64,000 nt of DNA from Candidatus Cloacimonadota bacterium (GTDB taxonomy: Bacteria > Muiribacteriota > UBA6191), in assembly GCA_002402105.1 (NCBI GenBank), contig NVVD01000015.1, forward strand, positions 6,724 through 70,723. Direction: 5' to 3'. This document shows, piece after piece, positions 23,127 to 29,880 of this stretch. The notes below the pieces were generated by a model, which saw only the letters and a list, made by a program, of their open reading frames with translations, had not been told where the DNA came from and ran no database searches. Each line of letters starts with the position of its first letter. Positions within the stretch are counted from its first letter, which is position 1. The position numbers were made by a program, and so were the translations under genes.

Positions 23127-23269
23127 AAAACTTGTTAGCTTTATTTTTAAAAATTCTAGAAAACTCTTTTCTGAAAAGCTTTGCTATGATAATATTCAGT
23201 TAATAGATGAATAGAAAATTGAGTCGCATTTTCTATTTTAAACAAGGTTTTTCTTAAAAGTAGAGAGTG

Positions 23270-23713
23270 ATGAAAATAATACTAGGTTCAGATCATGGTG
23301 GAAGTGACTACCTTAAAGAGATTAGTAAGCTTTTAGAAACAATGAAAATAGAGATCTCTACTCCTTGTGGCTTTCCTTTTGAATCTATTGATTACCCAGA
23401 TGTAGTAAAAAGATGTGTAGAAGATTATAATAAATTAAAAGCAGATTTTATTATACTGGTTTGTGGCTCTGGTGTTGGTGTTTCAATTGCAGCAAATCGA
23501 TACGAAAACATTCGTGCTGTTTTAACCTCAAATCCATATCAAGCACAATTGGCTCGTGAGCATAATCATGCAAACTGTTTATGTTTTGGGCAAAGATTGT
23601 ACGGAATAGACCAAGTTAAAGAGGTTATTAAGATATTTATTAATACTATAGGTTCAGAAGATATGCGTCATTTAAGACGGATTGAAAAATTAGGAGACTT
23701 AGATAATGGCTAA
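23270..23713 (+). CDS. rpiB: Ribose 5-phosphate isomerase B
   Basis: A 147-residue RpiB/LacA/LacB protein. Diagnostic blocks are LGSDHGG at the start, the active-site segment [14 protein letters not shown] with the catalytic Cys present, and [14 protein letters not shown] with the His pair. It interconverts ribose 5-phosphate and ribulose 5-phosphate. I use ATG 23270; a GTG three bases upstream is the alternative. It overlaps upp by 8 bases and forms an operon with upp and metK. A second RpiB-like protein with a different active site sits in the BMC operon at 29171, so this copy is probably the housekeeping enzyme. Confidence 0.9.
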
Positions 23714-24347: not shown

Positions 24348-25529
24348 ATGACAAAGAAAAGATACTTCTCATCCGAATCAGTAACAGAAGGCCATCCAGA
24401 TAAAATGGCAGATCAGATATCAGATGCAGTTTTAGATGCAATTATGGCAAATGATCCTAATGGACGTGTTGCTTGTGAAACAGCATTAACCACTGGAATG
24501 GTAATGGTTATGGGTGAGATTACTACAGATTGTTATGTAGATGTACCAAAAATAGTTAGAGATGTTGTTAAAGATATCGGTTATACAAATGCAGATTATG
24601 GCTTAGACTATAAGTCTTGTGCTGTACTTGTGACTATTGATGAACAATCTCCAGATATTTCTCAGGGTGTTACAGAGTCTCTTGAATTTAGAGGAGATGC
24701 TTCTGATAAATACGATGAAGTTGGTGCTGGAGATCAAGGTATGATGTTTGGTTATGCCTGTAAAGAAACAGAAGAGTTAATGCCTTTGCCAATTACTTTG
24801 GCTCATAAACTAACAAATAAATTGGCAGAAGTTAGAAAACGTGGTTCGTTAAAATATTTAAGACCAGATGGAAAAGCTCAAGTGACAGTTGAATATGATG
24901 GTTTTATTCCAAAAAGAATTGAAGCTGTTGTAATTTCAACACAGCATGATGAAGACATTACGCTTGAAGCTTTAACAGAAGATGTGAAAGCTCAAGTCAT
25001 TATGTCAGTATTGCCTTCTGATTTGGTAGATGCTGATACTAAAGTTTATGTTAATCCAACTGGTAGGTTTGTAATTGGTGGGCCACACGGAGATGCTGGT
25101 TTAACTGGTAGAAAAATTATTGTAGATACTTATGGTGGCATGGGTCGTCATGGTGGTGGAGCATTTTCTGGTAAAGATTGTACAAAAGTAGATAGATCAG
25201 CAGCTTATGCTTGTAGATATATTGCTAAAAACTTAGTTGCTGCTGGATTTGCAGATAGACTAGAAATTCAAGTTGCTTATGCAATTGGTGTTTCTAGACC
25301 AATGTCAGTACTTGTAGATACTTTTGGTACAGGTACAATGGATGAAGATAAAATTGAAGATGTAGTTTCAAAAGTTTTTGATCTTAGGCCTGGCGCTATT
25401 ATTGATCATTTACGTCTTAGAAGACCGATTTATCGACAAACTGCTGCATATGGTCATTTTGGAAGAAATGATTTAGACCTTCCTTGGGAGCAGTTAGATA
25501 AGGTTGATGAATTAAAAAAATATTTATAA
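24348..25529 (+). CDS. metK: S-adenosylmethionine synthetase
   Basis: A 393-residue MetK. Motifs: [20 protein letters not shown] at the start, [12 protein letters not shown] with the adenine-binding loop, [20 protein letters not shown] and [17 protein letters not shown] with the phosphate-binding Lys. It makes SAM from methionine and ATP. I choose ATG 24348, 7 bases after GTGGAG; a GTG at 24336 in frame is less likely. It is third in the rpiB-upp-metK operon and ends at a strong terminator. No SAM riboswitch is seen upstream. Confidence 0.96.
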
Positions 25530-26417: not shown

Positions 26418-26894
26418 ATGAAAATAAATTTATTAATAATATTGGTGTTAGCAAGTTTTCAGTCTGTAGATGCATATAATTTTAGATATAAAGCAAGTAG
26501 AAGTAATGCTCAAAACAGTAGGGACCAAAAGACTCTATCAAATAAAAGGGGCATTAAAAAATATAATAACTCTAACTTTTCTCGTCAAAAACCTACTTCT
26601 TCTTTTGGTTTTGAGGTTTTTAATGAAACAGAAAAAAAGCTAAAAGCTCCAAAATATACAAGTCAAACAAGGAGAATGGGAAGAGGTCCTCAAAAAAGGA
26701 TAAACCCTAAAAATATTTTAAAAAGAGAGAAAAAAAGAAATACTCGTTCAAAAAGAAAAATAGAAAATATTAAAGCTGTTGGGTATACAGGGGAGTTTTA
26801 TGGTGGAGGAAACTCTTTGTTTGAAGTTGATCCTGGACTTGTTAATCGTTGGAATAAACCAGGTTTAATTTTAAGTAAAACTAAAAAGTGGTAA
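26418..26894 (+). CDS. Small basic exported protein
   Basis: A 158-residue protein from ATG 26418 (TTAGGAGTAGAA upstream). The signal peptide is MKINLLIILVLASFQSVDA. The mature part is strongly basic (KREKKRNTRSKRKIENIK), low in hydrophobic residues and probably disordered. It lies 13 bases after the barrel gene and is likely co-transcribed. It could bind nucleic acid, lipopolysaccharide or polysaccharide in the periplasm, but I have no family match. Confidence 0.65.
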   Translation: MKINLLIILVLASFQSVDAYNFRYKASRSNAQNSRDQKTLSNKRGIKKYNNSNFSRQKPTSSFGFEVFNETEKKLKAPKYTSQTRRMGRGPQKRINPKNILKREKKRNTRSKRKIENIKAVGYTGEFYGGGNSLFEVDPGLVNRWNKPGLILSKTKKW

Positions 26895-26903
26895 TTATAT
26901 ACT

Positions 26904-26931
26904 TTGATTCATTAATTGTGTGTGTTAAACT
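26904..26931 (+). promoter_or_regulatory. Promoter of the structured RNA before the BMC operon
   Basis: TTGATT at 26904-26909 and TAAACT at 26926-26931 with a 16-base spacer. Transcription would start near 26937, a few bases before the first arm of the long closing stem. Confidence 0.5.
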
Positions 26932-26936
26932 ATTTT

Positions 26937-27081
26937 TCACCTGTGGTATGCGTAATGAAATTCTGTTTTGAGGCCTACATAATTTTGCAAGGAAAGTTGA
27001 TTTCGAACTTGTTTGAGTCGCTTATCTGCCTGTTTTTAAACAGGCCTGCAAAACCTTTTCATACGGTATTACGGGTTTTTT
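26937..27081 (+). ncRNA. Structured RNA upstream of the BMC operon
   Basis: A long closing stem pairs 26939-26960 with 27057-27076 (about 20 pairs with G-U and small bulges). Inside it, 26965-26976 (GTTTTGAGGCCT) pairs with 27042-27054 through one bulge. The right arm of the closing stem is followed by TTTTTT, a terminator-like end 57 bases before the shell gene start. An alternative hairpin, GCCTGTTT-TT-AAACAGGC at 27028-27045, competes with the inner stem. The rod shape and promoter suit a free RNA of about 145 nt, such as a 6S-like RNA; the position suits a riboswitch or attenuator of the BMC operon. No known riboswitch motif was recognised. Confidence 0.6.
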
Positions 27082-27137
27082 AAATTATAATAGCTATAAA
27101 TGAGCTAAAAACTAAAATATATTTGTGGAGGAATGCA

Positions 27138-27428
27138 ATGCAAGTAGGCGAAGCTTTAGGAATGATTGAGACTAAAGGGTTAGTAGGGTTAATTGAGGCA
27201 TCTGATGCTATGTGTAAGGCTGCTAATGTTACTTTAGTTTCTTGGGAAAAAGTCGGTGGTGGAATGGTAACTGCTCTTATTCGTGGTGATGTTGCTGCTG
27301 TAAAAGCTGCTACTGATGCTGGGGCTGCTGCGGCCAATAAAGTGGGCGAGTTAATTTCTGTTCATGTTATTCCAAGACCACATTCTGATCTTGAAGATGT
27401 TTTTGCTTTATCTCAAAAGAAAAAATAG
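27138..27428 (+). CDS. BMC-H shell protein
   Basis: A 96-residue hexameric shell protein (Pfam BMC domain type). [20 protein letters not shown] and [20 protein letters not shown] are diagnostic, and [10 protein letters not shown] is the typical end. I use ATG 27138, 6 bases after GGAGG. Hexamers tile the facets of a microcompartment. It is the first gene of a six-gene operon and is preceded by a structured RNA. Only one BMC-H gene is present here and no BMC-T, so other shell genes should exist elsewhere in the genome. Confidence 0.95.
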
Positions 27429-27431
27429 AAA

Positions 27432-27701
27432 ATGAAACTAGGTAGAATTGAAGGTACTGTAGTTTGTACTATTAAAGATGAAAGACTTTTGGGTCTAAAA
27501 CTATTAATAGTGCATGAATGTGATGTCCATCTAAAAGCTATTAATGCTTATCATGTGGCAGCAGATACAGTACAAGCAGGGCCTGGAGATTTAGTAATGT
27601 TTGCCTCTGGAAGCTCTGCTAGACAAACTGAATTAACACAAAAAAAAGCCATCGACTGTGCTATTGTCGCTATCGTTGATAGTGTAAACCTAATACAATA
27701 G
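27432..27701 (+). CDS. BMC-P vertex protein (EutN/CcmL family), first copy
   Basis: An 89-residue EutN/CcmL protein: MKLGRIEGTVVCTIKDERLL at the start, then LIVHECD, DTVQAGPGDLVMFASGSSAR and CAIVAIVDSVN. Pentamers of this family cap microcompartment vertices. It starts 3 bases after the BMC-H stop. A second, divergent BMC-P lies at 29620 in the same operon; two or three pentamer paralogues per locus is usual. Confidence 0.93.
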   Translation: MKLGRIEGTVVCTIKDERLLGLKLLIVHECDVHLKAINAYHVAADTVQAGPGDLVMFASGSSARQTELTQKKAIDCAIVAIVDSVNLIQ

Positions 27702-27755
27702 CATTCAATATATCAAAAGAAATTAAAATGATGGCTTTTCTCTTAGGAGAGAAAA

Positions 27756-29171
27756 ATGGATTATTCTTCTGATGATATAGCACGAATTGTATCTCGAGTA
27801 GTAGAGCAATTGGATAGAAACTCAAATGTTTCAAGTACACCAGGTGTGAGTCTTGGAGACAATGGGCTTTTAGGATGCTATCAATCAATTGATGAGTGCG
27901 TAGAAAAAGCTTCTCTAGCTTATCAATCTTTCAAGGCTTATTCTTTATCTCAAAGAGAGCGATTTATTTTTGAAATAAGAAAAATCTGTATGGATAATTT
28001 AGAAGCTTTAGCTCGTATGGCTTTTGAAGAAACTTCTTTAGGACGTTTTGAAGATAAAGTTGAAAAAAATAGATTAGTTATCGAAAAAACCCCAGGAACA
28101 GAAGACTTACAGCCGATTGCTTACTCGGGAGATAATGGTTTGACCTTAGTAGAAAGCTCTGCTTACGGAGTGATTGGTGCTATTACCCCAACAACAAATC
28201 CAACAGAAACAATCATAAATAATTCTATTGGGATGATAGCTGCTGGTAATTCAGTGGTATTTAATCCTCATCCTCGCGCTAGAAGATCCTGTGCTTATGC
28301 CGTTCATTTAATCAATGAAGCAATTATATCGTGTGGAGGTCCAAGAGACTTGGCTACTATCATGGAGCATCCATCAATGGAGTCAGGCCAAGAGTTAATG
28401 GAACACGATGGTATTCGTATACTAGTTGTTACAGGTGGGCCAGGCTTGGTTAAAGCAGCGGCAAAATCAGGAAAAAAGGTGATTGGCGCAGGCCCGGGAA
28501 ATCCTCCTTGTATTGTTGATGAAACAGCAGATTTGGATGCAGCAGCAAGATATTTGGTTCAAGGAGCAACTTTAGATAATAATATTTTGTGTATTGCTGA
28601 AAAAGAAGTATTTGTAGTTGAATCTGTTGCAGATGAGTTTATGCAAGCTTTAAAAAGAAACAATGCTTATCATGTAATTGGAGCAAATATTTCAAAATTA
28701 GAAAATCTGATTTATCAAGATAATCATATGAATGCTGATTTTATTGGAAAAGATGCTTCCTTTATTTTGTCTCATGTAGGTATTCATACTGATTCAAATA
28801 TTCGTTTAGCTTTTATGGAAGTGTCAAATGATCACTTTTTAGTGCATACAGAGCAAATGATGCCAGTTATGCCAATTGTACGTTGTAAAGATGTAAAAGA
28901 AGCTATTGATAGAGCTATTGTAGCTGAAAAAGGTTGCTTACATACGGCTACAATGCATTCAAAAAATTTAGATAACTTACATGAAATGGCTGTGAGATCT
29001 GAAGTCAGTATTTTTGTTAAAAATGGGCCTTCATGTGCTGGCCTTGGTTTTGGGGGAGAAGGGTTTTCTACCATGACAATTGCTGGGCATACTGGTGAAG
29101 GTTTAACCTCTGCAAGAACATACACTCGTTCAAGAAGATGTGTATTAAAAGGTCACTTTAGGATTGTGTAA
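27756..29171 (+). CDS. CoA-acylating aldehyde dehydrogenase (PduP/EutE type)
   Basis: A 471-residue enzyme that oxidises an aldehyde to acyl-CoA with NAD. The N-terminal MDYSSDDIARIVSRVVEQL is an amphipathic encapsulation-type helix separated by a linker from the catalytic part. ITPTTNPTET, HPRARRS and NNILCIAEKEVFV, with the catalytic Cys, are the PduP/EutE signatures. AGGAGAG precedes the ATG. It should be the signature lumen enzyme of this microcompartment, with acetaldehyde or propionaldehyde as substrate. The aldolase or lyase that makes the aldehyde and the phosphotransacylase PduL are not in the window. Confidence 0.93.
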   Translation: MDYSSDDIARIVSRVVEQLDRNSNVSSTPGVSLGDNGLLGCYQSIDECVEKASLAYQSFKAYSLSQRERFIFEIRKICMDNLEALARMAFEETSLGRFEDKVEKNRLVIEKTPGTEDLQPIAYSGDNGLTLVESSAYGVIGAITPTTNPTETIINNSIGMIAAGNSVVFNPHPRARRSCAYAVHLINEAIISCGGPRDLATIMEHPSMESGQELMEHDGIRILVVTGGPGLVKAAAKSGKKVIGAGPGNPPCIVDETADLDAAARYLVQGATLDNNILCIAEKEVFVVESVADEFMQALKRNNAYHVIGANISKLENLIYQDNHMNADFIGKDASFILSHVGIHTDSNIRLAFMEVSNDHFLVHTEQMMPVMPIVRCKDVKEAIDRAIVAEKGCLHTATMHSKNLDNLHEMAVRSEVSIFVKNGPSCAGLGFGGEGFSTMTIAGHTGEGLTSARTYTRSRRCVLKGHFRIV

Positions 29172-29623
29172 TGTATAAAATATCTATTGCTTCTGATCAT
29201 GGTGGTTATCGATTAAAAAATGTTTTGGTCAAATATTTAAAAGAAGATTTGGCCTATGAAATAGTAGATGATTTAGGACCATTTGATTCAGCAAGTGTAA
29301 ACTATCCAGAGTATGCTTTAATGGTGGCTAGGTCAGTAGCTATGGGTCATTATGATATTGGTATCATGCTTGATGGTGTGGGTATTGGTTCTACTATGCT
29401 TGCTAATAAAGTAGATGGGGTTCGTTGTGCTATGTGTTATGACGACTTTACTACAAACAATGCAAGAGAGCACAATCATGCTAATATGTTATGTATTGGT
29501 GGGCAAACAATCGGTGATACTCTGGCAAAGGCTATAGTTAAAAAATTTTTAAATACCATACCAGCTTTAGGTAGGCATGCAGATAGGGTTCAAATGATTA
29601 TGGATGTAGAGTTGATGTCATGA
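29171..29623 (+). CDS. RpiB-like sugar-phosphate isomerase of the BMC operon
   Basis: A 150-residue RpiB/LacA/LacB-family protein with ASDHGGYRLK, and REHNHANMLCIGG. The active-site segment is LDGVGIGSTMLANK, so Asp stands where the 23270 copy has the catalytic Cys in VCGSGVGVS. It therefore cannot use Cys chemistry. RpiB-like proteins with this DG-x-GIGS form are recurrent in sugar-phosphate-type BMC loci. It overlaps the dehydrogenase stop by one base and the second BMC-P gene by four. Its substrate may be a different sugar phosphate, such as a deoxy sugar. No N-terminal targeting peptide is present. Confidence 0.88.
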   Translation: MYKISIASDHGGYRLKNVLVKYLKEDLAYEIVDDLGPFDSASVNYPEYALMVARSVAMGHYDIGIMLDGVGIGSTMLANKVDGVRCAMCYDDFTTNNAREHNHANMLCIGGQTIGDTLAKAIVKKFLNTIPALGRHADRVQMIMDVELMS

Positions 29624-29880
29624 TTTTGGCTCGTGTTTGTGGAAACATAGTAGCCTCTCATGCTGAATCTGGTTTTCATGCTCAACCATTGCGTTTAGTG
29701 CAAAAATTAGACAAAGATTTAAAAGCTTATGGTGCTATTTCTTCTGCTATTGATAGAATAGGAGTAGGAAATGGTGAGATTGTGTTATTAGAAACGTCTT
29801 TAGAGTCTAGTTTGGGTTTGCTTAATATGTGTGCATCAGATCAAGCAATTATTGCAATTGTTGATAAGTTAGTTGGTTAA
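29620..29880 (+). CDS. BMC-P vertex protein (EutN/CcmL family), second copy
   Basis: An 86-residue EutN/CcmL protein: MILARVCGNIVASHAE at the start, then GVGNGEIVLLETS and DQAIIAIVDKLV. ATG overlaps the isomerase stop (ATGA at 29620-29623). It differs from the first BMC-P in the loop AESGFHAQPLRLVQKLDKDL. Heterogeneous vertices may give different pores or interactions. Confidence 0.9.
   Translation: MILARVCGNIVASHAESGFHAQPLRLVQKLDKDLKAYGAISSAIDRIGVGNGEIVLLETSLESSLGLLNMCASDQAIIAIVDKLVG

Follow-up and report, generated by a model that had tools for sequence, protein, structure and literature searches.

A probable 6S RNA gene precedes a microcompartment operon in a conserved gene order

Organization of the locus

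The window analysed here, a stretch of DNA of 64 kb, contains a structured RNA element that is followed on the same strand by an operon for microcompartment proteins, which belong to a metabolic compartment enclosed by a protein shell. The RNA and its parts are located as follows.

26904..26931, + strand: likely 6S promoter, TTGATT-16-TAAACT, 8/12 consensus, with an extended -10 element TGTTAAACT at 26923-26931; consensus match only
26935..27081, + strand: probable 6S RNA (ssrS); RF00013, 50.5 bits (gathering score 46.4), complete model 1-187
26939-26960 with 27057-27076, + strand: closing stem, 20 pairs with two 1-nt bulges; predicted fold
26965-26976 with 27042-27054, + strand: helix P2, 12 pairs; predicted fold
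26977..26990, + strand: 5' side of the central bubble, presumed pRNA template, from its position in the RF00013 alignment and the fold
26991..27026, + strand: short apical arm, from alignments of class and phylum sequences; shorter than in relatives of families f2, f3 and f7
27028..27045, + strand: 3'-central-bubble hairpin, 7 pairs; 27042-27045 are common to its 3' arm and P2
27076..27081, + strand: T run closing the 6S RNA, which could act as no more than a weak terminator particular to this lineage

The operon comprises the following genes.

27138..27428, + strand: BMC-H shell gene, first after the 6S RNA (PF00936, 1e-29)
27432..27701, + strand: EutN/CcmL-type pentamer shell gene (PF03319)
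27756..29171, + strand: aldehyde dehydrogenase gene (PF00171)
29171..29623, + strand: RpiB/LacAB-type isomerase gene (PF02502)
29620..29880, + strand: second EutN/CcmL-type shell gene (PF03319)

The ATG of the first shell gene is at 27138, leaving 56 nt between it and the 6S end. This agrees with a sequence-only reading of the window that preceded our analysis, which had the microcompartment operon starting 57 bases on. A Pfam scan of the operon (27138-29880) recovers BMC-H, the two EutN-type genes, aldehyde dehydrogenase and RpiB, and no signature substrate enzyme. Elsewhere in the window's own genome (G000) there is a BMC-domain pair on contig C17 and a DeoC-family gene on contig C46.

Fold of the RNA

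The minimum free energy computed for 26937-27081 is -43.2 kcal/mol (z -4.2), a value equalled by 1 of 200 dinucleotide shuffles. The sequence-only reading had described a rod with two long helices of about 20 and 12 bp, and the computed fold reproduces this with 20 and 12 pairs. The same reading had pointed to a hairpin at 27028-27045 in competition with the inner helix. Both elements are recovered, and because the hairpin and helix P2 both use 27042-27045 they compete. Forcing the hairpin gives a best fold of -40.0 kcal/mol, against -43.2 kcal/mol unforced; the hairpin fold and the P2 fold are mutually exclusive and lie 3.2 kcal/mol apart.

Identification as a 6S RNA

6S RNA is a small RNA that turns RNA polymerase down at nutrient exhaustion. 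It binds the polymerase holoenzyme, templates the synthesis of pRNA and accumulates in stationary phase. The sequence-only reading had offered a '6S-like RNA' as one identity for the element and had suggested an Rfam search. RF00013 is the sole Rfam match at the gathering threshold within the whole 64-kb window, with a score excess over the cut-off of just 4 bits, and no riboswitch family appears even at a relaxed E-value. A whole-genome search found one 6S copy in the window's own genome.

The architecture is that of a 6S RNA, with a closing stem, a central bubble and an apical stem that carry compensatory changes. The bubble is flanked on both sides by G-C pairs: pairs 40-163, 41-162 and 57-143 of the class alignment (A1) are G-C in 7/7 distinct sequences. 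A 3'-bubble hairpin that competes with P2, the release feature of E. coli-type 6S RNAs, is present by layout. The RNA is 147 nt long, against the roughly 185-200 nt that are typical, although not defining, of 6S RNAs, and the apical arm is the part most reduced; in a different family of this phylum, the 6S RNAs of relatives measure about 200 nt. According to the available text of PMC8876501, truncated B. subtilis 6S-1 RNAs that have two short arms remain able to complete the 6S cycle in vitro. The length of 147 nt is therefore no objection, and a short RNA of this kind can be functional.

The available text of the Ms1 paper (PMC9130861) describes Ms1, which is structurally related to 6S RNA, and the element could in principle be an RNA of that type, binding core polymerase, rather than a 6S RNA. 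However, it scores above the 6S gathering threshold and matches no other family at that level, and we consider an Ms1-type identity extremely improbable. Taking the Rfam match together with the covariation described below, we conclude that 26935-27081 on the + strand very probably encodes 6S RNA, as the sequence-only reading had correctly suspected.

Conservation and covariation in relatives

We searched for 6S RNA in the window's own genome and those of its relatives. RF00013 matches at E <= 0.001 were found in 35 of 56 genomes, 11 of them above the cut-off. The search missed G001, a genome of the same genus, in which blastn recovers the 6S RNA at 85% identity.

The 6S homologues of all eight genomes of the window's class (8 sequences, 7 of them distinct, from 3 families) adopt the same fold, and the closing stem, P2 and the apical arm all show compensatory changes. 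Over the 7 distinct sequences, 95.4% of cells are paired and 19 of 37 pairs show changes on both sides. None of 500 shuffles reaches this pairing level. Sliding the partners brings pairing down to about 40%, a comparison that favours the structure over its slid versions, as the structure came from the same alignment plus a manual extension of P2. Covariation in homologues, which the sequence-only reading had named as a check on the element, thus came out in its favour. In the same 7 sequences, paired cells and pairs with both-side changes amount to 98.3% and 7/17 for the closing stem, 92.9% and 5/10 for P2, and 91.1% and 6/8 for the apical helix. The hairpin at 27028-27045 pairs in all 7, with both-side changes at 2/7 pairs.

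The phylum alignment (A2) contains 23 of 25 sequences, G003 and G004 having been omitted because they nearly duplicate G002 and G005, and has both-side changes at 23 of 44 predicted pairs. A covariance model built from these 23 sequences (R1) detects 6S RNA in 30 of 39 phylum genomes, including G009, G013, G024, G032 and G037 outside its training set. R1 finds no 6S RNA in G008, G010, G012, G015 and G017 (families f4, f6 and f8) or in G027, G028, G035 and G036 (f7). Microcompartment genes are present in G028, G035, G036 and the genomes named from f4, f6 and f8; the 6S RNA there may have been lost, be too divergent for R1 or be missing from incomplete assemblies.

Conserved linkage to microcompartment genes

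The sequence-only reading had tied the RNA to the microcompartment operon, and comparison across genomes shows this link to be conserved. All eight class genomes carry a BMC-H gene 3' of the 6S RNA on the same strand, 81-100% identical to the copy in the window, and the distance from the 6S 3' end to the BMC-H start codon is 31-118 nt. In family f7 the 6S RNA lies 1.9-3.3 kb upstream of BMC-H, again on the same strand, in 11 of the 14 genomes that have both. In G011, whose operon is the sole f7 operon that we scanned with Pfam, BMC-H is preceded by two genes, one of which encodes a phosphate propanoyltransferase. The first gene of the f7 operon (L153:1002-2093, about 360 aa) sits between the 6S RNA and the phosphate propanoyltransferase gene and has a weak TIM match of 34 residues (9.8e-5).

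Across the phylum, 24 genomes have both 6S RNA and shell gene; the two are linked in 19 and lie on different contigs in the remaining 5. This count leaves out G029, in which the 6S RNA is at a contig end and the sole BMC match, a weak one, is on a different contig. The linked genomes are related and so count as a single arrangement passed on by descent rather than as 19 separate events. The gene upstream of the 6S RNA varies within the window's family, being asparagine synthase in G002 and a gene of no Pfam family in G000 and G001, while the order of 6S RNA and shell gene is kept.

We found no paper connecting 6S RNA with microcompartments in a literature set that omitted most subscription journals. 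In the available portions of texts that mention both 6S RNA or ssrS and a microcompartment, the terms are unconnected and mostly in reference lists.

Promoters and terminators

The sequence-only reading had placed a promoter before the RNA and a T run after it. The candidate promoter matches 8 of 12 consensus positions, a modest score under the 9-of-12 threshold of our scan; an extended -10 element occurs at this place upstream of the 6S RNA in all eight class genomes (TGnTAnnnT, a pattern written after the sequences had been viewed). The T run is indeed present at 27076-27081, but relatives do not keep it: f2 lacks it, and in g2 it is weak.

A terminator scan found no terminator-like site at 26700-27300, and no intrinsic terminator lies between the 6S RNA and the shell gene in any of the 8 class genomes. 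In f7, 11 of 17 6S genes examined have an intrinsic terminator of their own after the 6S RNA. A first, stricter rule had given 7/17 in f7 and 0/8 in the class and missed hairpins whose stem enters the T tract; widening the rule to such stems gave 11/17 and 0/8. The 17 are drawn from 20 f7 6S genes, with G024, G032 and G037 outside the count.

These results bear on a proposal of the sequence-only reading that did not find support, namely that the element is a new attenuator or riboswitch for the operon. In that case the T run would be where the rod terminates transcription, and read-through into the microcompartment genes would be switched by the hairpin at 27028-27045. In favour of this stand two mutually exclusive folds separated by just 3.2 kcal/mol, a T run at the end of the RNA and a location before the shell gene that is conserved. 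However, the full-length match is to 6S RNA with no riboswitch family beside it, the T run is not conserved and no terminator was found ahead of the operon in any of the class genomes. The hairpin itself matches a known 6S release element; parts of this kind are familiar from 6S RNAs, and it does not point to a riboswitch. Moreover, 6S RNA occurs without a microcompartment gene or on another contig in G014, G026, G037, G009, G013, G024, G025, G030, G032 and G034; G009 and G013 (family f5) carry the 6S RNA and the shell gene on different contigs, and G024, G025, G030, G032 and G034 have no BMC match. The operon therefore does not maintain the 6S structure. We reject regulation in cis by an attenuator or riboswitch, which we regard as very unlikely.

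Probable co-transcription with the operon

With the RNA identified as 6S, the remaining alternative concerns the co-transcription step and leaves that identity untouched. The proximity could be devoid of transcriptional meaning, with the 6S RNA ending at the T run, a gap promoter serving the operon and a gene order merely passed down from a common ancestor. Several results lean this way: an f7 6S gene with its own terminator means that the link there need not imply co-transcription, and the two genes are unlinked in 5 of the 24 genomes with both. In the gap between 6S RNA and shell gene there is one promoter-like site at 8/12 in G006 and there are several at 8-9/12 in the AT-rich G000 and G001; given these weak matches, a separate promoter may serve the operon in the window's genus. 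However, the gap holds no promoter-like site of at least 8/12 in G002, G003, G004, G005 and G007, and in G002 and G003 it measures just 31 nt; proximity of no consequence also fits less well with an upstream gene that changes within the family while the 6S-shell order stays. We treat mere proximity as a serious but somewhat doubtful explanation.

Adjacency on the same strand with no intervening intrinsic terminator, found in 8/8 class genomes, makes a 6S-microcompartment dicistron comparable to E. coli ssrS-ygfA the likeliest reading of the sequences, and we lean towards co-transcription of 6S RNA and shell genes in the window's class. The 6S gene would then be the promoter-proximal unit of the microcompartment operon: transcription from the 6S promoter would probably continue into the shell genes in this class, and the 6S RNA would be cleaved out of this longer transcript, or leaky termination would define its end, by analogy with ssrS-ygfA in E. 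coli.

The available text of PMC7641849 describes the E. coli ssrS-ygfA dicistronic transcript as processed to 6S RNA, and that of PMC4064990 describes 6S within the 5' UTR of ygfA as a conserved linkage. The dicistron of E. coli and other proteobacteria resembles the present arrangement in that 6S RNA leads a protein operon (PMC7641849, available text). It differs in its partner genes and lineage, and co-transcription here is something that we infer. The available part of the Ms1 paper states that no 6S gene-order pattern is valid for all bacteria (PMC9130861).

Proposed 6S cycle and role of the hairpin

By analogy with known 6S RNAs, this RNA would mimic an open promoter and, under nutrient shortage, bind the housekeeping RNA polymerase holoenzyme. 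The polymerase would use the 5' side of the bubble as template for a short pRNA, upon which the 6S RNA would be released. P2 is the helix expected to be unwound by pRNA synthesis; its freed 3' strand could fold into the hairpin at 27028-27045 and aid ejection as in E. coli-type 6S RNAs. Polymerase binding, pRNA synthesis and the role of the hairpin are all carried over from these better-known RNAs.

In E. coli-type 6S RNA, the unwinding of P2 by pRNA synthesis leads to a 9-bp hairpin formed from the 3' bubble and the P2 3' strand, which aids release, whereas in B. subtilis 6S-1 the 3'-bubble hairpin is smaller and is already present in the free RNA (PMC8876501, available text). The hairpin in the window has the E. 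coli-type 3'-central-bubble layout, and its position and overlap with P2 suggest the release role. The RNA shares with E. coli-type 6S (RF00013) the closing stem, central bubble and apical arm, a 3'-central-bubble hairpin drawn partly from the P2 3' strand (PMC8876501, available text) and a gene placed ahead of a protein operon; it differs in being 147 nt long with a strongly shortened apical arm, and in that the operon downstream encodes microcompartment proteins and not ygfA. Its overall rod and small 3'-bubble hairpin are also like those of B. subtilis 6S-1, but the overlap of the hairpin with P2 is as in E. coli.

We regard the identity of the element as settled: it is, by layout, a short natural 6S RNA with an E. 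coli-type release hairpin. It is a further instance of a known RNA, and the conserved 6S-microcompartment order is the noteworthy part, with a 6S partner operon in this phylum other than ygfA. Co-transcription of the two, if it occurs, would tie expression of the microcompartment to the growth-arrest switch of the cell. As a speculative and rather unlikely extension, the phylum may possess one starvation unit, in which 6S RNA and shell operon are both expressed from a single transcript, the compartment, a catabolic one, is made during global throttling of transcription, and the P2/hairpin switch and 6S 3' processing set how much shell mRNA survives.

Flanking genes

Similar isomerase genes flank the locus. 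One is the RpiB/LacAB-type gene at 29171-29623; the other, at 23267-23713, looks alike by eye and adjoins a uracil phosphoribosyltransferase gene, a hint that nucleosides or pentoses may be used. The MetK encoded at 24351-25529 is 65-69% identical to MetK of Lachnospiraceae and Clostridium, to which nearly all of the best 80 loci listed in a peptide-pattern search belong, and its gene was possibly acquired.
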